DNA of 64,000 nucleotides from Rhodobacteraceae bacterium QY30. GTDB lineage: Bacteria; Pseudomonadota; Alphaproteobacteria; Rhodobacterales; Rhodobacteraceae. Position numbers and translations under genes: made by a program. The notes below the pieces were generated by a model that was not told the origin of the DNA, searched no databases, and was given only the letters and a program-made list of their open reading frames with translations. Location of the stretch: NCBI GenBank assembly GCA_002356635.1, contig CP023454.1:3022501-3086500 (forward strand). Direction: 5' to 3'. Below, one piece after another: positions 25,705-39,659 of the stretch. Positions within the stretch are counted from its first letter, which is position 1, and the number at the start of each line of letters is the position of its first letter.

Positions 25705-27414
25705 TCAGCCGATCACCTCGAAGCGATCCACGTCCACCAGCCCGTGGTCGGTGATCTTCAGGTGCGGGATCACCGGCAGGGCCAGGAAAGCCAGTTGCAG
25801 GAAGGGTTCCTCCAGCGTCACCCCCAGCGATCGGGCGGCGCTGCGCAGGGCATGGAGCTGGCGCTCCACCGCCTCGAAGGGCTCCAGGCTCATCAGCCCC
25901 GCAACCGGCAGCGCCAGTTCGGCGAGGATACGGCCCCGCTCGGCCACGACAAATCCGCCCTCGATTCCCGACAGTCGGTTCACGGCCAGCGCCATGTCGT
26001 CGTAATCTGCCCCCACGGCCACGATGTTGTGGTGGTCGTGGCAGACCGTCGCCGCGATGGCGCCGGACTGCATTCCGAATCCCGTCACGAAACCGATGGC
26101 GACGTGGCCGTTCCGCCCGTGCCGTTCGACCACCGCGATTCGCATCAGGTCGCGCGCCGGATCGGGACGCTTGTCGCCATCCTCGGCCACGATGGTTTCG
26201 ATCCGGTGCTCGGTGATGATCTTGCCGGGCATGATGCCGATGACCGGGGTCTCACTGTGGTTGGAGACCGAGCGGAACTGCCGCGCCTCGACCACCGGCG
26301 CCTTGACCGACTGCCGCCCCACCGGCGCGACCGTTCCGCGCGCGGCAAAGGCCGCCGCGTCCGCCACCACGCCCCCGGCCAGCACCATCCGCGCCCGGCA
26401 GCTTTCCAGACTGTCCAGCACCACGATGTCGGCACGCTTGCCCGGCGCGATCAATCCGCGGTCCTTCAACCCGAAAGCCTCGGCTGCCGAAAGGCTGGCC
26501 GCGCGGTAGACCGCCAGCGGATCGGCGCCCAGCGCGATGGCCGTGCGGATCATGTGATCCAGATGCCCCAGCTCGGCGATGTCCAGCGGATTGCGGTCAT
26601 CGGTGCAGAAGCAGATGTAGGGCGCGTGCCGCTCGGTGATGATCGGAGCCAGCGCGTGCAGGTCTTTCGAGACCGACCCTTCGCGGATCAGCACCCGCAT
26701 TCCCTTGCGCAGCTTCTCCATCGCCTCGGCGGCGCTGGTCGCCTCATGCTCGGTCCGGATGCCCGCCGCGACATAGGCATTCAGGTCGCGTCCTGTCAGC
26801 AGGGGGGCATGGCCGTCGATGTGGCGGCCGCGAAAGGCCTCCAGCTTTTCCAGGCAACCCGGATCGCTACCAAGGACGCCGGGATAATTCATGAACTCCG
26901 CCAGGCCGATCACCCGCGGATGGTCCATCAACGGCGCCAGGTCGGCGGCGCTCAGCTTGGCGCCCGTCGTTTCCATATGGGTCGAGGGCACGCAGGACGA
27001 CAGCTGCACCCGGATGTCCATCACCGTTTCGCCCGAGGCGCGCAGGAAATAGTCGATCCCCGCCAGCCCGCAGACATTCGCGATTTCATGCGGATCGCAG
27101 ATCGCGGTCGTGATCCCGCGCGGGGTGACGCAGCGGTCGAATTCGAAGGGCGTCACCAGGCTCGATTCGATATGCAGATGCGTGTCGATGAAACCCGGCA
27201 CAAGGACGGCGCCCGACACGTCGATCACCCGCCGGCCTTCATAGCCCGGCTCGAAGACGCCGACGATGGTATCGCCGCAGATCGCCACGTCGGTTTCCAC
27301 CAGATCGCCCGTGATCAGGTCAAACACCCGGCCGCCCCGCAGAACCATGTCGGCGGGTTCCTCCCCTCGGCCCTGGGCGATGATCGAGGCTAGCGGCGCA
27401 CGGGTTGCGGTCAT
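25705..27414 (-). CDS. ade: Adenine deaminase
   Basis: A 569-residue amidohydrolase-superfamily enzyme that deaminates adenine to hypoxanthine and ammonia for purine salvage or nitrogen use. Evidence: [12 protein letters not shown] (metal His79/His81 and the family's Glu), [43 protein letters not shown] with the metal Asp, and the adenine-deaminase C-terminal domain ([19 protein letters not shown]). The length is normal for the family. The ATG at 27414 has a perfect AAGGAG seven bases upstream. It is divergent from the dipeptidase gene with 175 bases between starts; the GlxA-type regulator gene follows downstream. Confidence 0.92.
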
Positions 27415-27589
27415 GGTGTTCTCCTTCGGTCGGGTGTCAGGACACGGCATCCCCCGGCCGCTGTCCAGCCCCTTCGCGCGGCGTGAAAAGGCGGCACCGG
27501 GGCCGGGGCGCCTGCCGCCCGGTACAGATGGGGCTTGAAATCGGCGCATCGGGGGGCGCAGTCTCGGCCCCGGAACAAAGGAACCCGCA

Positions 27590-28642
27590 ATGACCCCGAT
27601 CTTTGACGGCCACAACGACTTTCTCCTGCGTCTCTACCGCGCCCCCGCCGCGCGCGAGATGCTGTGGCTTCACGGCGACGGCACCGGCCATATGGACCTG
27701 CCGCGCTGCAAGGCGGGCGCCTTCGCGGGCGGCTTCTTCGCCGTCTACATCCCCAGCCCGGTTGATCCCGATGGCGTGGATTACGACCTGCTGATGGACA
27801 ACCCGCCCTACGAGGTGCCTTTGCCCAAGCTGATCGATCAGACGGCGGCCGGGCCTGTGGCGCTGGCCAAGGTCGGCCACCTGATGTGGATGGAGCGCAC
27901 GGGAACCCTGTCCATATGCCGCAGCGTGGCCGACATCCGCGCGGCCATGGCCGCAGGCCGCATCGCGGCGATCCTGCACTTCGAAGGGGCCGAGGCGATC
28001 GGCGCGGACCTGGATGCGCTGCATGTCTGGCATGGGGCGGGCCTGCGGTCGCTGGGGCCGGTCTGGTCGCGCCCGACGATCTTTGGCCACGGCGTGCCCT
28101 TCCGCTACCCCGGCACGCCCGACACCGGCGAAGGGCTAACGCCCGCAGGGATCGGGCTTGTCCGCGAATGCAACCGGCTGAAGATCATGGTCGACCTGTC
28201 GCACCTGAACGAAAAGGGCTTCAACGACGTGGCGGCGATTTCAGATGCGCCGCTGGTCGCCACGCATTCGAACGCGCATGCCGTCACGCCGTCGACCCGC
28301 AACCTGACCGACCGGCAGCTGCGCCAGATCGCCGAAAGCCGCGGCATGGTGGGGCTGAACTACGCGACCGTGTTCCTCGACCCGAACGGACGACAGAAGC
28401 CGTTTACGGGCTGGGATCCGATCCTGCGCCATCTCGATCACCTGCTGTCGATCCTCGGCGAGGACCACCTGGGTCTTGGCTCGGATTTCGACGGCGCGAC
28501 GGTGCCCACCGAAATTGGCGATGTCGCTGGCAACCCGAGGCTGCTGGATGCGCTGTGCCGCCACGGTTTCGGAGAGGCGCTCGTGGAAAAGATCGCCTGG
28601 CGGAACTGGCTTTCCGTGCTGGAACGCACCTGGGGCGGCTAG
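27590..28642 (+). CDS. Membrane dipeptidase (peptidase family M19)
   Basis: A 350-residue M19 renal-dipeptidase-like zinc hydrolase. FDGHNDFL holds the first zinc His8 and Asp10, HFEGAEAIG the bridging Glu, [10 protein letters not shown] and ATHSNAHAV the next His ligands, and GLGSDFDGA the substrate Asp. No signal peptide or membrane anchor is seen, as in most bacterial forms, so it is likely cytoplasmic. It splits dipeptides (or D-amino-acid and beta-lactam amide bonds in relatives), which fits the peptide importer nearby. AAAGGA precedes the ATG. The next gene begins four bases after its stop. Confidence 0.87.
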
Positions 28643-29860: not shown

Positions 29861-29976
29861 CGCAAAGATTGCAACAATTCCCGAACCGGTATTAGCTTGG
29901 GGCGCCGGGCCTGTCGTGAAACTGTCACCGACGGTGCTTAGAGCGACAACGCGCAGGCTGCCGCCGCGCGACTTAT

Positions 29977-29990
29977 GGGGAGTATTTTTC
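29977..29990 (+). repeat. GGGGAGTATTT leader motif, short copy
   Basis: GGGGAGTATTTTTC sits directly before the ATG of the binding protein and supplies its ribosome binding site (GGGGAG). It resembles the GAGTATT motif before the starts at 63625, 47543 and 25611. Confidence 0.35.
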
Positions 29991-31094
29991 ATGATGATGA
30001 AACGTGTCGTGCTGGCTGCCAGCGCGGGTGCGCTTCTGGCTTCGACTGCCTTGGTCAGCGCCGAGACGCTGGCCGACATCGAGGCCGCCGCCAAGAAGGA
30101 AGGTCAGCTGACCACCATAGCGCTGCCGCATGACTGGTGCGGTTACGGCGCGGTCATCGAGGGCTTCAAGGCGAAGTACCCGGAAATCACCATCAACGAA
30201 CTGAACCCCGACGGCAGCTCGGCCGACGAGGTCGAGGCGATCAAGGCCAACAAGGACAACAAGGGCCCGCAGGCGCCCGACGTCGTGGACGTGGGTCTGG
30301 CCTTCGGTCCGCAGATGAAATCCGAAGGGCTTCTGATGCCCTACAAGGTGTCGACCTGGGACAGCATTCCGGAAAACCTGAAGGATGCGGATGGCGCCTG
30401 GTATGGCGACTATTACGGCGTGATGGCCTTCGGCGTGAACAAGGATCTGGTGGCGAATGTCCCGGCCGACTGGGCAGACCTGCTGAAACCGGAATACAAG
30501 GGCCAGGTCGCGCTGACCGGCGACCCCCGCGCCTCGAACCAGGCGATCCTGGCGATCATGTCCTCGGGCATGTCGCGCGGCGGCAAGGCGGGCAAGGAAT
30601 CGGGCGAGAAGGGCCTCGAGTTCTTCGCCGAGCTGAACAAGGCCGGCAACTTCGTTCCGGTTACCTCGAAGTCGGGCACCATCGCCCAGGGCGCGACCCC
30701 GATCGTCGCCGCCTGGGACTACAACCTGCTGGCCTGGCGCGATGGCATGAATGGCAACCCGCCGATGGACGTCGTGATCCCGTCCTCGGGCACGCTCGCG
30801 GGCGTCTATGTGCAGGGCATCAGCGCCTATGCGCCGCATCCGAACGCCGCGAAGCTGTGGATGGAATACCTTTATTCGGACGAAGGTCAGCTTGGCTGGC
30901 TGAAGGGCTACTGCCACCCGATCCGCTTCAAGGACCTGGTGGAGCGGAAGGTGATCCCGCAGGAAGTCATGGACAAGCTGCCCCCGGCGGCCGCCTATGA
31001 CGCTGCCTATTTCCCGACCGTGGAAGAGCAGGCCGCCAACAAGGAAGCCGTGACCGGCGGCTGGGACACCGTCGTCGGCGCGAAAGTCGAATGA
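29991..31094 (+). CDS. Periplasmic solute-binding protein of ABC transporter (Fe/polyamine-type fold)
   Basis: A 367-residue precursor. The signal peptide runs MMMKRVVLAASAGALLASTAL with cleavage near VSA-ET, and ADIEAAAKKEGQLTTIALP is the normal N-terminus of the AfuA/PotD-like binding proteins (families 1/6/13). YGVMAFGVNKDLV and ISAYAPHPNAAKLWMEYLYSDEGQ are typical. It feeds the two permeases and ATPase downstream. Ligands of this group include Fe3+, thiamine, polyamines, 2-aminoethylphosphonate and other amines. The neighbouring amine-type catabolic genes favour a small amine or amino alcohol; that is inference. Only the ATG at 29991 gives an intact signal peptide with a ribosome site. 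Confidence 0.83.
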   Translation: MMMKRVVLAASAGALLASTALVSAETLADIEAAAKKEGQLTTIALPHDWCGYGAVIEGFKAKYPEITINELNPDGSSADEVEAIKANKDNKGPQAPDVVDVGLAFGPQMKSEGLLMPYKVSTWDSIPENLKDADGAWYGDYYGVMAFGVNKDLVANVPADWADLLKPEYKGQVALTGDPRASNQAILAIMSSGMSRGGKAGKESGEKGLEFFAELNKAGNFVPVTSKSGTIAQGATPIVAAWDYNLLAWRDGMNGNPPMDVVIPSSGTLAGVYVQGISAYAPHPNAAKLWMEYLYSDEGQLGWLKGYCHPIRFKDLVERKVIPQEVMDKLPPAAAYDAAYFPTVEEQAANKEAVTGGWDTVVGAKVE

Positions 31095-31098
31095 TCCT

Positions 31099-31130
31099 TT
31101 GGCCGGCCCCGGGCAACCCGGGCCGGCCAA
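31099..31130 (+). terminator. Intra-operon stem-loop after the binding-protein gene
   Basis: A nearly perfect GC-rich hairpin: left arm 31099-31113, loop CAA, right arm 31117-31130, with one bulged C. It has no T-run. Such structures between a binding-protein gene and its permeases usually stabilise the upstream message or partly terminate, giving excess binding protein. Confidence 0.6.
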
Positions 31131-31147
31131 TCCCCGGGGGAACCAGT

Positions 31148-32008
31148 TTGCGCACCAATGTCCCGAAGCTGCTGAGCCTATGGGCCGGGCTCTTGCCCTT
31201 CCTGCTGTTCTGCCTGCTGTTCCTGATTCTTCCGACGTTCAAGATCGTCACCGGCGCCTTCCAGGCGCCTGACGGCACGTTCACTCTCGACAACATCCGG
31301 ATGATGAACTCGGGGAACATTCCCTCGGCCTTCTGGGTGTCGATCAAGATTTCCTTCGTCTCGGCCCTGCTGGGCGGAGTCGCCGGTTTTGCCGTTAGCG
31401 CGGCGCTGGCCTTCGGCGCGGTTCCGAAGGCGCTGCGCGGGGCGGCAACGACATTTTCAGGCGTGGCCGCGAACTTCGCCGGCGTGCCGCTGGCCTTTGC
31501 CTTCATTGCGACGCTGGGTCCGGTGGGCCTTGTGAACGTCATGCTGCGCTCGAACAACATGGCGACGCTGCAACAGATGGGCTTCAGCATCTACGGATTC
31601 TGGGGCCTGACGATGGCCTATGTGTTTTTCCAGTTGCCGCTGATGATCCTGATGATCCTGCCCGCGCTGGACGGGCTGAAGCGCGAATGGCGCGAGGCGG
31701 CGGCGATCCTGGGGGCAAGCGGTGCGCAATACTGGCGGATGATCGCGCTGCCGATCCTGACGCCGGCGCTTCTGGGCACCTTCGCGCTGCTGTTCGCCAA
31801 TGCCTTCGGCGCCGTTGCCACGGCCATGGCGCTGACCGGCGCGAACCTGAACATCGTGCCGATCCTGCTTTTCGCGCAGATCCGCGGCGACGTGCTGGGC
31901 AATCCCCACCTGGGCTATGCGCTGGCCTTCGGGATGATCGTGGTCACGGCGGTGGCGAACACACTTTACATCTGGCTGCGCGTCAGATCGGAACGGTGGC
32001 TGAAATGA
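31148..32008 (+). CDS. ABC transporter permease 1 (polyamine/amine type)
   Basis: About 286 residues with six membrane helices. The first is LLSLWAGLLPFLLFCLLFLIL, and EWREAAAILGASGAQYWRMIALPIL is the EAA coupling loop. Two starts compete. An ATG at 31091 overlaps the binding-protein stop but would translate through the hairpin at 31099-31130. A TTG at 31148 follows GGGGGAACC, after the hairpin. I favour the TTG. The stop overlaps the second permease's ATG. With its partner it forms the channel for the substrate brought by the binding protein at 29991. Confidence 0.75.
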   Translation: MRTNVPKLLSLWAGLLPFLLFCLLFLILPTFKIVTGAFQAPDGTFTLDNIRMMNSGNIPSAFWVSIKISFVSALLGGVAGFAVSAALAFGAVPKALRGAATTFSGVAANFAGVPLAFAFIATLGPVGLVNVMLRSNNMATLQQMGFSIYGFWGLTMAYVFFQLPLMILMILPALDGLKREWREAAAILGASGAQYWRMIALPILTPALLGTFALLFANAFGAVATAMALTGANLNIVPILLFAQIRGDVLGNPHLGYALAFGMIVVTAVANTLYIWLRVRSERWLK

Positions 32009-32796
32009 ACCTCTGGGTCCGCATCACCGGCTGGCTGGCCTTCGTCCTGGCGGCGGGCTACATGCTGGTGCCGCTGTTCGGCATGACGGAGTTTTCGCTG
32101 AAGGCACGTCGCGGGGTCTATTCTCTGGACGCCTATGCGCGGGTGATCGGCGACACCGAGTTCCAGGCAACCTTCGGCTATTCGGTGACGTTGGCGCTGG
32201 CCACCATCGTCCTGGGCGTGCTGATCGTGGTGCCAACGGCCTTCTGGGTACGCCTGAAGATGCCCTGGGCGCGGCCCTTCGTCGAATTCCTCACGCTTTT
32301 GCCGCTGGTCATTCCGGCCATCGTCCTCGTGTTCGGCTACATCCGGCTTTACAACACCTCGAGCTTCCTGCCGCTGACCGGTTCGGCGGCTGGCACGAAC
32401 CTGCTTCTGGCCCTGGGCTACACGGTGCTGGCGCTGCCCTACATGTACCGCGCCATCGACACGGGCCTGCGCACGATCGATGTGCCGACCCTGACCGAGG
32501 CGGCGCAGAGCCTGGGCGCGGGCTGGGTGACGATCCTGTGGCGGATCGTCCTGCCCAACGTGATGGTCGCGGTGCTGTCGGGCGCGTTCCTGACCTTCGC
32601 CATCGTCATCGGCGAATACACCCTTGCCGCGCTTCTGGATCGGCCCGCCTTCGGCCCCTACCTGCAGCGCATCGGCACGAACAAGCCTTATGAACCCTTC
32701 GCTCTTTCGGTGATTTCCTTCGCGATCACCTGGGCCTGCATGGGCTTGATCCAGCTGGCCACCCGGCTGTCCAAACACACGAAAGCACAACGCTGA
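32005..32796 (+). CDS. ABC transporter permease 2 (polyamine/amine type)
   Basis: A 263-residue permease with six predicted helices (first: ITGWLAFVLAAGYMLVPLFGM). The coupling segment is TLTEAAQSLGAGWVTILWRIVLPNV, and GAFLTFAIVIGEYTLAALL matches PotC/AfuB-type permeases. The ATG at 32005 overlaps the first permease's stop (ATGA), and the stop shares its last base with the ATPase start. The frame is open farther upstream, but that stretch lies inside the other permease gene. Confidence 0.83.
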   Translation: MNLWVRITGWLAFVLAAGYMLVPLFGMTEFSLKARRGVYSLDAYARVIGDTEFQATFGYSVTLALATIVLGVLIVVPTAFWVRLKMPWARPFVEFLTLLPLVIPAIVLVFGYIRLYNTSSFLPLTGSAAGTNLLLALGYTVLALPYMYRAIDTGLRTIDVPTLTEAAQSLGAGWVTILWRIVLPNVMVAVLSGAFLTFAIVIGEYTLAALLDRPAFGPYLQRIGTNKPYEPFALSVISFAITWACMGLIQLATRLSKHTKAQR

Positions 32797-33848
32797 TGTC
32801 CTTCCTGACGATCGAGCATCTGGAAAAGAGCTTTGGCACCAACCGCGTGGTCCAGAACTTCAATTTGACCATCGAGAAGGGGGAGTTCGTTTCGCTTCTG
32901 GGTCCGTCCGGCTGCGGCAAGACCACCGTTTTGCGCATGGTCGCCGGGTTCGAGACCCCTTCCACCGGGCGCATCGTCATCGGCGGGAAGGACGTGGTGA
33001 ACCTGCGCCCGAACCAGCGCAATATCGGCATGGTGTTTCAGGCTTATGCGCTGTTTCCGAACCTGACGGTCGCCGACAACATCGGCTTCGGGCTGAAGGT
33101 CGCAGGCAGGCCCCGGGCCGAACGCACGGCCCGCGTGGCCGAGATGCTGAAGCTGATCGGCCTGCCCGACCTGGGCGACCGGTTTCCGTTCCAGCTGTCG
33201 GGAGGCCAGCAGCAGCGTGTCGCGCTGGCCCGGGCGCTGGCGCCCAGTCCGCAGGTGCTGTTGCTGGATGAACCGCTGTCGGCGCTGGACGCGAAGGTGC
33301 GGGTGTCCTTGCGCAACGAGATCCGCGCCATCCAGAAAAAGCTGGGCATCACCACCATCTTCGTGACCCACGACCAGGAAGAGGCGCTGTCGATGTCCGA
33401 CCGGGTCGTCGTGATGCACGGCGGCCGGGCCGAACAGGTGGGCACCCCATTCGAGGTCTACAACCGGCCGGCGACGAAGTTCGTGGCCAATTTCGTCGGC
33501 ATGCTGAACACGCTGGAAGCCGATGTGATCGACCCTGCCACGGGCCGCGTCCGCATCGGCGGAACCGAGACCAGCTTGCGGCGTGCCCTGCCCGCCGGCC
33601 GGGTGACGCTGGCCGCCCGGCCCGAGATGATCGCGCTGGGGGTGCAGCCGGGCCGCGATACGATTCTGGAGGGCAAGATCACTTCGGTCGATTTCCTGGG
33701 ATCGGTCATCCGCATCCGGGCGCGGGTCGACGGGTCGGAACTGGCCTTCGACACCTTCAACAGCACCGATGCGCCGCCCCCGGCGCCGGGGTCCGATGTG
33801 CGGCTGTCGCTTCTGGCCAGTGACCTGCTGCTTCTGCAAGACCCGTAG
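32796..33848 (+). CDS. ABC transporter ATP-binding protein (PotA/FbpC-like)
   Basis: A 350-residue ATPase: Walker A GPSGCGKTTVLRMVAG, signature LSGGQQQRVALARAL, Walker B VLLLDEPLSALD, H-loop THDQEEALSMSDRV. A C-terminal TOBE domain (residues about 240-350, ending in LLASDLLLLQD) is typical of polyamine, iron and sugar importers. The gene is the fourth and last of the importer operon and stops only eight bases from the convergent RpiR-type gene, leaving no room for a separate terminator. Confidence 0.86.
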   Translation: MSFLTIEHLEKSFGTNRVVQNFNLTIEKGEFVSLLGPSGCGKTTVLRMVAGFETPSTGRIVIGGKDVVNLRPNQRNIGMVFQAYALFPNLTVADNIGFGLKVAGRPRAERTARVAEMLKLIGLPDLGDRFPFQLSGGQQQRVALARALAPSPQVLLLDEPLSALDAKVRVSLRNEIRAIQKKLGITTIFVTHDQEEALSMSDRVVVMHGGRAEQVGTPFEVYNRPATKFVANFVGMLNTLEADVIDPATGRVRIGGTETSLRRALPAGRVTLAARPEMIALGVQPGRDTILEGKITSVDFLGSVIRIRARVDGSELAFDTFNSTDAPPPAPGSDVRLSLLASDLLLLQDP

Positions 33849-33856
33849 GGGCGGGG

Positions 33857-34726
33857 TCACTTCTGCCGGCGAAAGACACGGGCGCGCGTATACAGGTCTT
33901 CCAGGCGCTTCATCCGTGCCTGCGTGCTGTCCCAGGATCGCGCCTCGACCGCCGCCAGCAGGGTCTCGACAAGCACATGAATCACGGCCGTCGAATCCCA
34001 GGCGGAAGGCGCCTCGACATGGGCCGACAGGCGGAAGCGCGCCCGTTCGGCGGCGGGGGAAACCCACTGGTCGGTGATCACGACCACCTCGGCCCCCTGT
34101 TCGGCCGCCATCTCGACCAGTTGCAGGATCGAGCTGCCATAGCGGCGGATGTCAAAGACCAGAAGCACCGCGCCCGGCCCCATGTCGATCAGCGCGGGCC
34201 AGGCGTTGGTGGTGTCCGTGATCAGCGTCACGCCGGGGCGCATCACTTGAAGGTGGCTGACGAAGTAATCCGCCATCGCCTGCGTCACGCGCCCGCCGGC
34301 GGCAAAGATACGACGCGCCGGATCGGCCATCAGATCGGCGACGGCGTCGAAATCGGCGTGGTCGATCTGCCCCAGCGTCGCCTGAAGGTTGGCGACGACG
34401 GCATCGGCAAAGCGGTTGAGGATGTGGGTATCGGGCACGCCACCCGCCCAGCGGTCATGCTTGACCAGCGGTGAGATCAACCGCTCTTCAACCTCGGCGC
34501 GCAGATGGGACTGAAGATCGGGATAGCCCTTGAAACCCAGCTTCTGTGCCAGCCGCACGACTGTAGGGGTCGAGACCTCGGCGGCCCGCGCCAGCGCGGT
34601 GATCGACCCCAGCGCCGATACCGGGTAGTTCCGCGTGATGTGGCTGGCAAGCTGCCGCTCGGCCCGGGTGAGGCCGTCGAAGGACTGCCTGATCTGCTGT
34701 TCCAGCGTAGTTCCGGTTCCCACCAT
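33857..34726 (-). CDS. RpiR/MurR-family transcriptional regulator
   Basis: A 289-residue regulator. An N-terminal HTH_6 domain has ITALARAAEVSTPTVVRLAQKLGFKGY. A C-terminal SIS domain (about residues 120-260) has RRIFAAGGRVTQAMADYFVSHLQ and EVVVITDQWVSPAAERARFRL. SIS domains usually bind phosphorylated sugars, but several RpiR proteins govern amine or amino-acid catabolism. The ATG at 34726 is preceded by AGAAGG; a longer start at 34762 has no ribosome site. It is divergent from the amidohydrolase/ligase operon and convergent with the importer, so it probably controls one or both. Two direct repeats in the divergent gap are likely sites. Confidence 0.83.
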   Translation of the reverse strand: MVGTGTTLEQQIRQSFDGLTRAERQLASHITRNYPVSALGSITALARAAEVSTPTVVRLAQKLGFKGYPDLQSHLRAEVEERLISPLVKHDRWAGGVPDTHILNRFADAVVANLQATLGQIDHADFDAVADLMADPARRIFAAGGRVTQAMADYFVSHLQVMRPGVTLITDTTNAWPALIDMGPGAVLLVFDIRRYGSSILQLVEMAAEQGAEVVVITDQWVSPAAERARFRLSAHVEAPSAWDSTAVIHVLVETLLAAVEARSWDSTQARMKRLEDLYTRARVFRRQK

Positions 34727-34774
34727 CGGCCGCCTTCTGCCCCGCTTCCGCCGGGAGAGCATAGCGCGGACCGT

Positions 34775-34816
34775 AACGATCTTAACAGAGGAACATTTCT
34801 GAAACGATCTTGACAG
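34775..34816. promoter_or_regulatory. Tandem direct repeat, candidate operator of the RpiR-type regulator
   Basis: AACGATCTTAACAG (34775-34788) and AACGATCTTGACAG (34803-34816) match at 13 of 14 positions and are 28 bases apart, so they face almost the same side of the helix. They lie between the divergent regulator and amidohydrolase genes. The second contains TTGACA, a -35-like hexamer for the plus strand. Confidence 0.5.
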
Positions 34817-34862
34817 GCAGGGGCGCGGCAATGGAACCTCTGGCGCAGGGAGGACTGGCTGC

Positions 34863-35648
34863 ATGCAGGACAGGGCAGACGACAGCAATGGGATTCTGAC
34901 GGTCGTGGCGCCGGGTGCGCCCGGTCCGTTCGTTCTGGTCTGCGAACATGCCTCGAACCGCTTTCCCGTGGAATATGGCACGCTTGGCCTTACCGAGGAG
35001 GCGCGTTCAGCCCACATTGCATGGGATCCCGGCGCATTCGGATTGGCGCGGGCGCTGTCGCGGCGGCTTGACGCGCCGCTGGTCGCCGCCGATGTCTCGC
35101 GGTTGATCTACGATCTGAACCGCCCGCCCCACGCCCCCGGCGCGATGCCCGCGCAAAGCGAGGTCTACGCGATTCCGGGCAATGCGGATCTGGATGCGGC
35201 CGAACGCCTGCGCCGGACGGAAGCGATCTATATCCCCTTTCATGAACGGGTGCGCCGGGAACTGGCCCGTCGGACCGCGCTGGCCACCCGCCCAGCGCTT
35301 CGGCCGGTTCTGGTCACGGTCCACAGCTTCACCCCGGTCTTCCACGGCGAGCCGCGCAGCGTCGAATTCGGGGTGATTCACGACGCGGACCCGCGGCTGG
35401 CACAGGCCGTGGTCGATGTGGCCCGCGAAGCGACCACGCTGATCACGGCGCTGAACGAACCCTATTCGGCCGCGGACGGCGTGACCCATACGCTGCGCCT
35501 TCAGGCCACGCCCTGCGGACTGCTGAACGTGATGCTGGAAATCCGCAATGACCTTATCGCCACGCCGGACGCGCAAGAGCGGATGGCGGAATTGCTTGCC
35601 CCTGTCCTGACCGCGGCGCTGACGCGGACGTGCGACGGGGCGGAATGA
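34863..35648 (+). CDS. N-formylglutamate amidohydrolase family protein
   Basis: A 261-residue FGase-family (PF05013-type) zinc hydrolase. Blocks seen: VLVCEHASNRFP, HIAWDPGAFGLARAL, DVSRLIYDLNRP and VLVTVHSFTPVFHG, which carry the presumed metal and substrate residues. The founding enzyme cuts N-formyl-L-glutamate in histidine breakdown, but no hut genes are nearby. Here it precedes a glutamine-synthetase-like ligase, an aldehyde dehydrogenase and an alcohol dehydrogenase, so it could release glutamate from a gamma-glutamyl intermediate (inference). GGGAGG precedes the ATG. Confidence 0.8.
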   Translation: MQDRADDSNGILTVVAPGAPGPFVLVCEHASNRFPVEYGTLGLTEEARSAHIAWDPGAFGLARALSRRLDAPLVAADVSRLIYDLNRPPHAPGAMPAQSEVYAIPGNADLDAAERLRRTEAIYIPFHERVRRELARRTALATRPALRPVLVTVHSFTPVFHGEPRSVEFGVIHDADPRLAQAVVDVAREATTLITALNEPYSAADGVTHTLRLQATPCGLLNVMLEIRNDLIATPDAQERMAELLAPVLTAALTRTCDGAE

Positions 35649-35689
35649 ACGGTCCCGAAGATGGACCGGAACAGATCAGGGAGACAAGA

Positions 35690-37054
35690 ATGCCGGCCAA
35701 TCTGACGCTCGAATCGCTGCGCTCTGCCTATGACGCGGGCGAAATCGACACGGTGGTCGCCTGCTTTGCCGACATGCAGGGTCGCCTTCAGGGCAAACGC
35801 TTCCACGTCGCGCATTTTCTTCATGGCGGGTGGGAGGAAACGCATTGCTGCAATTACCTTCTGGCCACTGACATGGAGATGGTGACGGTCCAGGGCTACA
35901 AGTCGACCTCGTGGGAGGCGGGCTATGGCGACTATGTGATGAAGCCCGACCTGGCGACCCTGCGCCGCGCCGCCTGGACGCCGGGCGTGGCACTGGTGAT
36001 CTGCGACATCCTGGATCACCACACGCATGAACCCGTGCCGCACGCGCCGCGCAACCTGCTGAAGCGTCAGGTCGAACGTGCAAAGGCGATGGGCTACGAC
36101 GTCCTCATGGCGACCGAACTGGAATTCTTCCTGTTCGAGCAGTCCTATGCAGAGATGTTCGACACGGGCTTCCGCAGCCCAACGCCCGTCGCGCGCTACA
36201 ACATCGACTACAACATCTTTGGTTCGGCGCGCGATGAACCGGTGATGCGCGCGCTGCGGAACGGCCTGCACGCCTCGGGAATCCCGGTCGAGAACTCGAA
36301 AGGTGAGGCCGAGGCGGGCCAGGAGGAAATCAACGTCCGCTATTCCGACGCGCTGGATACGGCGGACATGCACAGCATCATCAAGCTCGCCACCAAGGAA
36401 ATCGCCCAAAGCCACGGCAAATCCGCGACCTTCATGGCGAAATACGACCACCGCCGCGCCGGATCGTCCAGCCACATCCACCAGTCACTGTGGAAGGATA
36501 GCCAGCCCGCCTTCCTGGACGAAGGCGCCGAATATGGCATGTCGCCCCTGATGCGCAGCTTCATGGCGGGCCAACTGGCCCATGCCCGCGAGATCACCGC
36601 CTGCCTTGCGCCTTTCGTCAACAGCTACAAGCGTTTCGTAGTCGGCATGTTCGCCCCCACCAAGGCGGTCTGGAGCCTGGACAACCGCACTGCGGGCTTC
36701 CGCGTCTGCGGGGCGCACAGCAAGGCTATCCGCGTCGAATGCCGGATCGGCGGCGCGGACCTGAACCCCTATGTGGCGATGGCCGCGCTTCTGGCGGCGG
36801 GACTGGAGGGTATCGAGCAGAAGCTCGAACTTGAGCCCGAAGCTTCGGGCGACCTGTACCAGGCTGGCAAGGTGCGCGAAGTGCCGAAAACCCTTCAGGA
36901 AGCCGCCGACCTGATGCAGGGCTCGGCTTTCCTGCGCCGTGCCTTCGGGGAAGATGTGGTCGACCACTACACCCACGCCGCACGATGGGAGATCGCCGAA
37001 CAGAACCGTGTCGTGACCGACTGGGAAGTGGCGCGCGGGTTCGAGCGCGCCTAG
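35690..37054 (+). CDS. Glutamine-synthetase-like ligase (gamma-glutamyl amide synthetase, PuuA/IpuC type)
   Basis: A 454-residue glutamine-synthetase superfamily enzyme. Metal and substrate residues: ATELEFFLF (Glu143, Glu145), GEAEAGQEEIN, GSSSHIHQSLW (His262), NRTAGFRV and RIGGADLNPY. The sequence departs from GlnA at the ammonia and tyrosine-adenylation regions and resembles the enzymes that ligate glutamate to amines (PuuA, IpuC, GMAS). It would form a gamma-glutamyl amide using ATP. The ATG at 35690 follows CAGGGAG; an ATG at 35645 overlapping the preceding stop is a longer alternative. Substrate identity is unproven. Confidence 0.82.
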   Translation: MPANLTLESLRSAYDAGEIDTVVACFADMQGRLQGKRFHVAHFLHGGWEETHCCNYLLATDMEMVTVQGYKSTSWEAGYGDYVMKPDLATLRRAAWTPGVALVICDILDHHTHEPVPHAPRNLLKRQVERAKAMGYDVLMATELEFFLFEQSYAEMFDTGFRSPTPVARYNIDYNIFGSARDEPVMRALRNGLHASGIPVENSKGEAEAGQEEINVRYSDALDTADMHSIIKLATKEIAQSHGKSATFMAKYDHRRAGSSSHIHQSLWKDSQPAFLDEGAEYGMSPLMRSFMAGQLAHAREITACLAPFVNSYKRFVVGMFAPTKAVWSLDNRTAGFRVCGAHSKAIRVECRIGGADLNPYVAMAALLAAGLEGIEQKLELEPEASGDLYQAGKVREVPKTLQEAADLMQGSAFLRRAFGEDVVDHYTHAARWEIAEQNRVVTDWEVARGFERA

Positions 37055-37119
37055 CATTTCAGAGACTCCGGCCGCGCCCGCTTTTAACGGGGGTGCCGCC
37101 GCCAGATGGGAAAACCAGG

Positions 37120-38511
37120 ATGACAAAGACCATTCAACTGATTTCACCAGCCGACGGGCGCGTCTATGCCGAACGCCCCGCGTTGACCCTGGCCGAGGCC
37201 GAAGCCGCCGTTCAACGCGCCCGCGCCGCGCAGCCCGGCTGGGCCGACCGTCCGCTGGAAGACCGCATCGCGCTGGTCAAGGCCGGTGTGGCAAAGCTGA
37301 ACGAGATGAAGGATGTACTGGTCGAGGAACTGGCCTGGCAGATGGGCCGCCCGGTGCGCTACGGCGGCGAATTCGGCGGGGTAAACGACCGCACGAACTA
37401 CATGGCTGAAATCGCCGCCGAAACGCTGGCGCCGATGGTGGTCGAAAACTCGAACCTGTTCGAACGCCGGATCGAACGCGAACCGCATGGCATCGTCTTC
37501 ATCGTCGCGCCCTGGAACTACCCCTACCTGACCACGATCAACACGCTGGTGCCGGCGCTGATTGCCGGCAATGCCGTGATCCTGAAACACGCCACCCAGA
37601 CCCTGCTGGTGGGCGAACGGCTGGCCGAGGCGTTCCATGCCGCCGGCGTTCCGGCGGACGTGTTCCAGAACGTGGTGCTGGATCACCCCACGACCGAGGC
37701 TCTGATCGGCAACCGCGCCTTCGGCTTCGTGAACTTCACCGGATCGGTGGGCGGTGGCGTGGCGATGGAAAAGGCCGCTGCGGGCACCTTCACCGCACTG
37801 GGGCTGGAACTGGGTGGCAAGGACCCCGGCTATGTCATGGACGACGCCGATCTGGATGCCGCCGTCGACAGCCTGATGGACGGCGCGATGTACAACGCCG
37901 GCCAGTGCTGCTGCGGGATCGAACGGATCTATGTCCACGAAAGCCTCTATGACGCCTTCGTCGAAAAGGCGGTGGCATGGGTGAATGGGCTGAAGCTTGG
38001 CAATCCGTTTGAACCCGACAGCACCCTTGGACCGATGGCCAACCGCCGTTTTGCCGATGTTGTGCGCAGCCAGGTGGCCGATGCGATCACGGACGGCGCC
38101 CGCGCGCTGATCGATCCGGCCCGCTTCCCCGCCGATACCGGTGACAGCGCCTATGTCGCGCCGCAGATCCTGGTCGATGTGAACCACGAAATGCGGATCA
38201 TGCGCGAAGAAAGCTTCGGCCCCGTGGTCGGCATCATGCCGGTCAAGGACGACGAAGAGGCGATCGCGCTGATGAACGACTGCGCCTATGGGCTGACCGC
38301 CTCGCTCTGGACCCGCGACAGCGACCGAGCGGCGCGGATCGGGCGGCGGCTGGAAACCGGCACCGTGTTCCAGAACCGCTGCGATTATCTGGACCCGGCG
38401 CTGTGCTGGACCGGCTGCAAGGACACCGGCCGGGGCGCGGCGCTTTCGCCCTTGGGCTTCCATTCCGTGACGCGTCCGAAATCCTACCATCTGAAGAAGG
38501 TGACGAAATGA
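37120..38511 (+). CDS. NAD(P)-dependent aldehyde dehydrogenase
   Basis: A 463-residue ALDH. VAPWNYPYLTTINTLVPALIAGN is the cofactor-binding entry, FVNFTGSVGGG the glycine loop, LGLELGGKDPG carries the general base (Glu230) and NAGQCCCGIER the catalytic Cys (Cys264). In context it would oxidise the aldehyde made by the iron-type alcohol dehydrogenase that follows. It is 65 bases after the ligase gene and overlaps the next gene by four bases. The pairing matches PuuC/IpuH roles in gamma-glutamylated amine breakdown; the true aldehyde is not known. Confidence 0.86.
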   Translation: MTKTIQLISPADGRVYAERPALTLAEAEAAVQRARAAQPGWADRPLEDRIALVKAGVAKLNEMKDVLVEELAWQMGRPVRYGGEFGGVNDRTNYMAEIAAETLAPMVVENSNLFERRIEREPHGIVFIVAPWNYPYLTTINTLVPALIAGNAVILKHATQTLLVGERLAEAFHAAGVPADVFQNVVLDHPTTEALIGNRAFGFVNFTGSVGGGVAMEKAAAGTFTALGLELGGKDPGYVMDDADLDAAVDSLMDGAMYNAGQCCCGIERIYVHESLYDAFVEKAVAWVNGLKLGNPFEPDSTLGPMANRRFADVVRSQVADAITDGARALIDPARFPADTGDSAYVAPQILVDVNHEMRIMREESFGPVVGIMPVKDDEEAIALMNDCAYGLTASLWTRDSDRAARIGRRLETGTVFQNRCDYLDPALCWTGCKDTGRGAALSPLGFHSVTRPKSYHLKKVTK

Positions 38512-39659
38512 TCCCGCATCGCAACTGGTCCTATCCGACCGCGATCAAATTCGGCAACGGCCGCATCAGCGAACTGGCCGATCACTGCAAGGCCGCCGGG
38601 ATCACCCGGCCGCTTCTGGTCACCGACAAGGCGCTGGCCAGCCTGCCGATCACGGCCAACGCGCTGGATCTGCTGGACCAGGCCGGATTGGGCCGCGCGG
38701 TCTTTTCCGACGTCGATCCGAACCCGAACGAGGCCAACATGGCCGACGGGATCCGCGTCTACCTGGCGGGCGGCCATGACGGCGTGGTGTGCTTCGGTGG
38801 CGGCTCGGCGCTCGACCTGGGCAAGATGATCGCGCTGATGGCGCACCAGCGCGCCGATCTGTCGGTCTGGGATCTGGAAGACATCGACGACTGGTTCACC
38901 CGTGCCGATGCCGCGAAGATCGCCCCGATCGTCGCCGTCCCCACCACCGCAGGCACGGGCAGCGAGGTTGGCCGCGCGGGCGTGCTGACCAACAGCGCCA
39001 CCCACAAGAAGAAGATCATCTTCCACCCCAAACTTCTGCCGACGGTCACCATCTGCGACCCGGAACTGACGGTGGGAATGCCGCGCTTCATCACCGCGGG
39101 CACGGGAATGGACGCGCTCGCCCACTGCCTGGAAGCTTACTGCAGCCCCCACTACCACCCGATGAGCCAGGGCATCGCGTTGGAAGGGATGCGGCTGGTG
39201 TTCGAAAACCTGCCCAAGGTCTACGCCAATGCCCATGACCTGACCGCCCGCGCCCATATGATGAGCGCGGCCGCCATGGGCGCGGTGGCTTTCCAGAAGG
39301 GGCTGGGCGCGATCCATTCGCTCAGCCACCCCGTGGGCGCGATCTATGGCACCCACCACGGCACGACGAATGCAGTGGTGATGCCGATGGTGCTGGATTT
39401 CAACCGCCCCGCCATCGAAGGCATCATCGAACGCGCCGCCGCCTACCTGGGCATCGCGGGCGGCTTCGATGGGTTCAAGCAGGCCATCCTTGATCTGCGC
39501 CGCACACTTGACATTCCGCAGAACCTCACCGCGATGGGCGTCGATCCTGCGCGTCTGGACGAGATGACGGACATGGCGCTGGAAGACCCGTCCTGCGGCG
39601 GCAACCCGGTCGAGATGACGCGCGAAAATACCCGTCGCCTGTACGACGCCTGCATGTAA
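38508..39659 (+). CDS. Iron-containing (group III) alcohol dehydrogenase
   Basis: A 383-residue Fe-ADH. FGGGSALDLGKMIAL is the nucleotide loop and VPTTAGTGSEVG the second conserved block. The metal ligands Asp202 and His206 (GMDALAHCLEAY), His270 (GAIHSLSHPVG) and His284 (YGTHHG) keep the family spacing of 4, 64 and 14. All four ligands are present, so the enzyme should be active with Fe2+ (or Zn2+). The ATG overlaps the aldehyde dehydrogenase stop. In the pathway proposed here it would oxidise the hydroxyl group of a gamma-glutamyl amino alcohol. A strong terminator follows 23 bases after the stop. Confidence 0.87.
   Translation: MIPHRNWSYPTAIKFGNGRISELADHCKAAGITRPLLVTDKALASLPITANALDLLDQAGLGRAVFSDVDPNPNEANMADGIRVYLAGGHDGVVCFGGGSALDLGKMIALMAHQRADLSVWDLEDIDDWFTRADAAKIAPIVAVPTTAGTGSEVGRAGVLTNSATHKKKIIFHPKLLPTVTICDPELTVGMPRFITAGTGMDALAHCLEAYCSPHYHPMSQGIALEGMRLVFENLPKVYANAHDLTARAHMMSAAAMGAVAFQKGLGAIHSLSHPVGAIYGTHHGTTNAVVMPMVLDFNRPAIEGIIERAAAYLGIAGGFDGFKQAILDLRRTLDIPQNLTAMGVDPARLDEMTDMALEDPSCGGNPVEMTRENTRRLYDACM

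Follow-up and report, generated by a model that had tools for sequence, protein, structure and literature searches.

The window analysed here is the whole stretch C1:3022501-3086500 (64,000 nucleotides; C1 is contig CP023454.1) of the 3.55 Mb genome of Rhodobacteraceae bacterium QY30, and our subject is a four-gene operon within it together with its divergent regulator gene. The four open reading frames (ORFs) all lie on the + strand. The first (34863..35648) encodes a hydrolase of the N-formylglutamate amidohydrolase (FGase) family (PF05013, 141.8 bits) and is followed, after a gap of 41 bp, by the genes of a glutamine-synthetase-like ligase (35690..37054; PF00120, Gln-synt_C, 351.2 bits), an aldehyde dehydrogenase (37120..38511; PF00171, Aldedh, 402.8 bits) and an iron (Fe)-type alcohol dehydrogenase (38508..39659; PF00465, Fe-ADH, 152.0 bits, and PF25137, ADH_Fe_C, 145.0 bits). 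All four enzymes score far above the Pfam cut-offs. On the - strand, at 33857..34726 with a putative start at 34726, stands an RpiR/MurR-type regulator gene (HTH_6 63.5 bits, SIS 56.1 bits) whose product is the proposed regulator of the operon, and between the two lies a two-part control element (34773..34818, + strand). A preliminary description of this DNA had given the same gene content, order, strand and coordinates, and its "family hydrolase" is the FGase family member. It had also listed neither a monooxygenase nor PuuD, and this holds for the four-gene operon, where the ORF list and profile scans revealed no monooxygenase and no PuuD-type hydrolase.

A probable operon of the eto type

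We regard it as very probable that these genes form a chromosomal operon for ethanolamine catabolism, of the eto type, whose importer EtoVWX is encoded about 1.05 Mb away. The published reference is the eto operon of Phaeobacter sp. MED193 (MED193_10021-10056), given in PMC10132767 as RpiR-GGAH-EtoV-EtoW-EtoX-ETAGA-GAADDH-GETADH. In that strain five proteins of the operon become more abundant on phosphoethanolamine, and the Kd of EtoX for ethanolamine is 7.9 uM (PMC10132767). In the window, the hydrolase is the proposed gamma-glutamylglycine amidohydrolase (GGAH), the ligase the proposed ethanolamine gamma-glutamylase (ETAGA) and the alcohol dehydrogenase the proposed gamma-glutamylethanolamide dehydrogenase (GETADH), while the aldehyde dehydrogenase is proposed to use the gamma-glutamyl aldehyde (GAADDH).

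Ethanolamine would enter the cell via EtoVWX, an importer of the tripartite ATP-independent periplasmic (TRAP) type. The ligase would join glutamate and ethanolamine to gamma-glutamylethanolamide in an ATP-dependent reaction, the Fe-type alcohol dehydrogenase and the aldehyde dehydrogenase would convert this alcohol to gamma-glutamylglycine, and the hydrolase would split the latter into glycine and glutamate, which would thereby be returned. The divergent RpiR would act on both unlinked operons through the two-part element. We infer the substrate and the enzyme activities from homology and from published work on relatives, and the action of RpiR on the element is likewise a prediction.

The preliminary description had proposed the gamma-glutamylation of an amine or amino alcohol and had named ethanolamine among the candidates. 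This was right in kind and matches the published eto enzymes. Its view that the gene set differs from known routes has to be given up, because PMC10132767 already describes these enzymes, in this order, for ethanolamine. Among its candidate substrates ethanolamine is retained, whereas 1-amino-2-propanol would be a poor fit, as only a primary alcohol would suit oxidation by an alcohol dehydrogenase and then an aldehyde dehydrogenase, and 1-amino-2-propanol would yield a ketone.

A close relative of the ligase was detected in 181 of 295 sampled genomes of the family, and the named relatives closest by ligase are mainly Rhodobacteraceae. Among the best 80 of 576 ligase relatives, the aldehyde and Fe-type alcohol dehydrogenase genes directly follow the ligase gene in 74, so the arrangement is not due to chance; of the remaining six loci, all but one (L037) are close to the end of a contig. 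The upstream architecture was read in 66 of the 80 loci, the other 14 having less than 5.2 kb of upstream DNA. Hydrolase and TRAP genes were present together in 40 loci, the hydrolase alone in 11, the hydrolase with an APC permease in one, TRAP genes alone in five and neither in nine. An RpiR homologue was present somewhere in 53 of the 66 and, in the loci inspected, stood next to the operon and divergent from it. Features of the eto type that we found here are a ligase of the eto grouping, the two dehydrogenase genes directly downstream of it, an FGase-family hydrolase gene with a divergent RpiR gene, and EtoVWX in the genome. The importer genes usual between hydrolase and ligase are not present in the 41 bp gap. 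We do not treat them as defining since 11 of the 66 relatives likewise have the hydrolase without TRAP genes at the locus.

A maximum-likelihood tree was computed for 34 proteins, among them the ligase, E. coli PuuA and GlnA, the five other glutamine synthetase paralogues of the same genome and the solved structure 5dm3. The ligase fell into a group of 17 rows (support 94/95) made up of Rhodobacterales-type cluster ligases and PDB 5dm3, which is nested in two wider clades, one of 21 rows and one of 27 (both with 100/99), and it was separate from PuuA, GlnA and the five paralogues. Rows outside the ligase clade have long branches and the relations among them are unsure. The phylogeny that the preliminary description had suggested as a refuting test was run in part, with GlnA and PuuA as the reference ligases, and the ligase stands apart from both. 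5dm3, which we take to be Csal_0679, is also the best solved relative of the ligase (618.8 bits). Nine positions that are presumably catalytic or metal-binding (E129, E131, E212, E220, H269, R321, R339, E357 and R359 in GlnA numbering) are kept in the ligase. The position of GlnA Glu327, a residue that serves the ammonium site, is F in the ligase and Y in PuuA. The alignment is weak around GlnA positions 50 and 53, and these were given no weight. The position of the ligase in the tree supports ethanolamine as the substrate, short of proof.

For the hydrolase, identity as the N-formylglutamate deformylase HutG was considered and rejected, as it reaches 28 bits against TIGR02017, far under the 278.75 bits needed. 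The sole solved relative found for it is Atu2144 (2odf, 260.6 bits).

Among 18 plasmid neighbourhoods examined, two of them unannotated, the full eight-gene order occurs in Paracoccus sp. TOH, P. denitrificans PD1222, Qingshengfaniella, Marinovum and Ruegeria sp. B32. The loci of P. alcaliphilus and P. albus are without FGase, those of Aminobacter, Ruegeria conchae and Salipiger are without TRAP genes, and S. meliloti has an amino acid permease gene instead of TRAP. Other gene sets surround the ligase in P. phenoliruptrix, Thermomicrobium, Allomeiothermus, Arthrobacter U41 and Rhizobium CB3171. On plasmid pPABY1 of Salipiger abyssi (L142:8256-15650) the same four genes are followed by glyA (serine hydroxymethyltransferase) and an L-serine ammonia-lyase gene, a route from glycine to pyruvate. 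On pAA03 of Aminobacter aminovorans (L015:8190-18372), a plasmid typed as conjugative, the four genes adjoin the bhcRABCD genes of glyoxylate assimilation. Both neighbourhoods fit glycine as the product of the pathway.

The displaced importer and the shared control element

The EtoX gene of this genome (C1:2014331-2015365), which is some 1.05 Mb distant from the operon, is preceded by both permease genes and encodes a protein 79% identical to EtoX of P. denitrificans. The displaced EtoVWX operon as a whole (C1:2012243-2015368, which is L143:6244-9369) has its own copy of the control element. It is flanked downstream by genes for a CheA-like protein and a methyl-accepting chemotaxis protein and upstream, on the opposite strand, by an acyl-CoA dehydrogenase gene. 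The nearest solved relative of this EtoX is 4UAB, with 241 of 316 residues identical. 4UAB is Csal_0678, in which, according to PMC12410723, ethanolamine is held by Glu220 and aromatic residues. The glutamate nearest to this number, at chain position 217 of 4UAB, is conserved as Glu218 in the protein studied here and would correspond to the ethanolamine-holding Glu220. No EutB was found in the genome by a search that was positive in E. coli, and a search run without a positive control found no APC-type ethanolamine permease of the kind present in S. meliloti.

The control element in the window has the form GAAA..TAACAG / GAAA..TTGACAG, overlaps a TTGACA -35-like box and is the predicted, probable RpiR operator. 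Among 64 intergenic stretches of relatives, two of which are rpiR-TRAP rather than rpiR-FGase, 55 contain between rpiR and the first operon gene a two-part element with the consensus GAAAAGATTGTAACAGAA and AAGAAAAATTCTTGACAGAA at a spacing of 29-30 bp. These 55 were used to build a weight matrix, and the other nine did not fit. The window and the displaced locus were outside the training set, and the same-genus locus L144 was inside. The window site scores 45.2 (spacing 28), compared with 46.5 for the site before EtoV; the next-best distinct place in the 64 kb window scores 2.6, and the window site read on the opposite strand 10.4. The exact pattern TAACA-N21-25-TTGACA occurs at two places genome-wide, before this operon and before EtoVWX, and not at all in the reversed control. 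The pattern was also searched in 17 relatives, hand-chosen among those whose eto site fits it exactly, with variant-site relatives such as Cypionkella left out. Each of the 17 has it once at the eto locus, and there are eight further hits elsewhere. A GAA nine bases before TTGACA is present in all 17 eto sites and missing from the eight other hits. RpiR probably controls both unlinked operons through the shared two-part element. Searches confined to the open-licence literature turned up no account of an operator for this RpiR regulator.

Neighbouring ABC genes, apparent mosaic history and other readings

Beyond the rpiR gene, and convergent with it, lie genes for an ATP-binding cassette (ABC) importer (29916..33848, + strand) comprising an SBP_bac_6 binding protein, two permeases and an ATPase. 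Further out are an adenine deaminase gene (25705-27615, - strand), which scores above its curated cut-off (TIGR01178, 585.1 bits), and an adjoining M19 dipeptidase gene (27590-28642). The preliminary description had called the ABC genes a dedicated importer directly upstream of the operon. Their location is as described, but a dedicated role finds no support: they carry no control element, are linked to the ligase in few of the genomes that have them, and EtoVWX elsewhere does carry the element. We treat them as neighbours of the operon.

A second uptake system for ethanolamine, or for something related to it (a gamma-glutamyl amide, for instance), is nevertheless the alternative use of these genes that we weighed, and we consider it unlikely. 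The ABC binding protein is encoded in 47 of the 295 family genomes. In at least seven of these 47 (seven out of 40 when genomes without the ligase are set aside) it lies within 15 kb of the ligase gene, and in two more it is near EtoX. The linkage counts were made by eye, with different contigs taken as unlinked; G021, G028 and G219 were counted as unlinked, and G217 was read from L177. From position alone we would expect well under one such case, so that linkage is commoner than expected, yet far from constant. In the same-genus genome G275 (L144:7225-8007) a second FGase paralogue stands between the ABC ATPase gene and rpiR, and the FGase of the window groups with this ABC-side paralogue (0.992) and not with the FGase heading the G275 eto operon. 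Set against this, none of the 28 ABC upstream stretches scored contains the control element, the best reaching 13.0 compared with 45-46 at the true sites (a 29th locus had no upstream DNA), and we rejected the ABC importer as a member of the regulon. No clearly recurring pathway gene adjoins the ABC genes in 18 loci, and the 20 neighbouring proteins scanned (EamA, aminotransferase, FGGY kinase, arginase, M20 and others) gave no clear pattern. The binding protein itself resembles binding proteins for 2-aminoethylphosphonate, polyamines and sulfate, in each case below the cut-off.

Several observations weigh against the assignment of the locus to an eto pathway governed through a shared operator. 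Ligases from other gene settings fall in the 100/99 ligase clades too, among them those of P. phenoliruptrix, which has no adjoining dehydrogenases, and Arthrobacter U41, so membership of the clade is not enough to fix the substrate. The reversed control of the bare pattern gives 12 hits in 6 of the 17 relatives; the bare pattern is imperfectly specific, the full element much more so. As the second half of the element contains TTGACA, part of its conservation may reflect a promoter -35 box. Nine displaced TRAP operons of other genomes were all without the element, as was a tenth locus, L177, which is a canonical cluster. The split two-site arrangement is therefore not general, and we discarded a general rule of operator-linked TRAP relocation. 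Eleven relatives (L050, L053, L055, L056, L062, L063, L068, L073, L080, L088 and L099) have hydrolase, ligase and dehydrogenases with no TRAP genes at the locus, and EtoX was found in none of these 11 genomes at E 1e-60, in a search that held no positive control of its own; a related EtoX query has matches in 161 of the 295 genomes. Finally, identity to the cluster of the same-genus genome is only 74% for the ligase, 75% for RpiR and 68-72% for the FGase, compared with 93% for the aldehyde dehydrogenase, 91% for the Fe-type alcohol dehydrogenase, 93% for EtoX and 89% for EtoW.

This last disparity leaves room for a shifted substrate. The same chemistry might serve another primary amino alcohol, such as alaninol, 3-aminopropanol or a longer one, if the ligase in the divergent regulator-hydrolase-ligase block had changed its specificity, and the failure of the ligase to group with the same-genus ligase would be in keeping with that. 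We think this improbable, since the ligase is nested among Rhodobacterales cluster ligases and the sole other operon bearing the element is that of an importer with a binding protein similar to 4UAB, a structure with ethanolamine bound. A last alternative, an ordinary glutamine synthetase or putrescine ligase beside incidental dehydrogenases, has a negligible chance of being correct: the best NCBIfam matches of the ligase (GlnA 260.8, type III 246.7 and GGputSyn 192.9 bits) are far under the cut-offs of 429.15, 469.6 and 650, its place in the tree and its residues differ from those of GlnA and PuuA, and the dehydrogenase pair is next to it in 74 of the best 80 relatives.

We thus keep to a probable ethanolamine operon of the eto type, with what looks like a mosaic history. 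EtoX and the aldehyde dehydrogenase are sister to the same-genus proteins (0.997 and 0.999, respectively), and ligase and FGase are not sister to the same-genus operon copies. The simplest reading of these relationships is that the RpiR-hydrolase-ligase block was replaced while the native importer was kept elsewhere. We lean towards a broader picture in which one RpiR would run a split ethanolamine regulon: the divergent regulator-hydrolase-ligase block would have been swapped in, and the native TRAP operon 1.05 Mb off would answer to its own operator copy, the element being found at exactly two genomic places. The hydrolase type, which stands beside ABC genes in the same-genus genome, may point to a further substrate feeding the pathway.

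Ethanolamine is a common membrane-lipid headgroup and a nitrogen source, and its role in the ocean is stressed in PMC10132767. The predicted operator makes the RpiR regulon testable. A shared control element can reveal an importer where gene neighbourhood does not, and, as a caution, the nearest ABC importer should not be assigned by proximity.

Comparison with known gamma-glutamyl pathways

The pathway has been described before, in marine bacteria; what is new here is the detail of a split arrangement with a predicted operator. Compared by published description, the MED193 eto cluster shares with the locus the regulator family, the hydrolase, the ligase and the aldehyde and alcohol dehydrogenases in the same order. 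It differs in that EtoVWX is encoded inside the operon, whereas here it lies about 1.05 Mb off behind a second copy of the control element.

Likeness to the ethanolamine pathway of Chromohalobacter salexigens and Agrobacterium tumefaciens, cited as demonstrated in PMC10132767 and belonging to other lineages, is found at the level of the proteins: the closest solved relatives are 4UAB (Csal_0678) for EtoX, 2odf (Atu2144) for the hydrolase and 5dm3 for the ligase.

In S. coelicolor, GlnA4 carries out the first step as gamma-glutamylethanolamide synthetase, and an enzyme of the formylglutamate amidohydrolase family is proposed for the last, according to PMC6529630. The first step and the proposed last-step enzyme family are thus alike, but the Streptomyces cluster has a short-chain dehydrogenase gene, and its regulator and permease genes are different ones. 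The actinobacterial ligase relatives that we compared (Embleya and two Arthrobacter) are 47-51% identical to the ligase of the window.

A Puu pathway for putrescine was rejected for this locus, where ORFs, profiles and tree yielded no PuuA-type ligase, PuuB oxidase or PuuD hydrolase. The E. coli Puu pathway shares the logic of glutamylation, oxidation at the far end of the amine and release of glutamate, but it uses the PuuB oxidase and the PuuD hydrolase in place of the Fe-type alcohol dehydrogenase and the FGase, and its ligase stands elsewhere in the tree.

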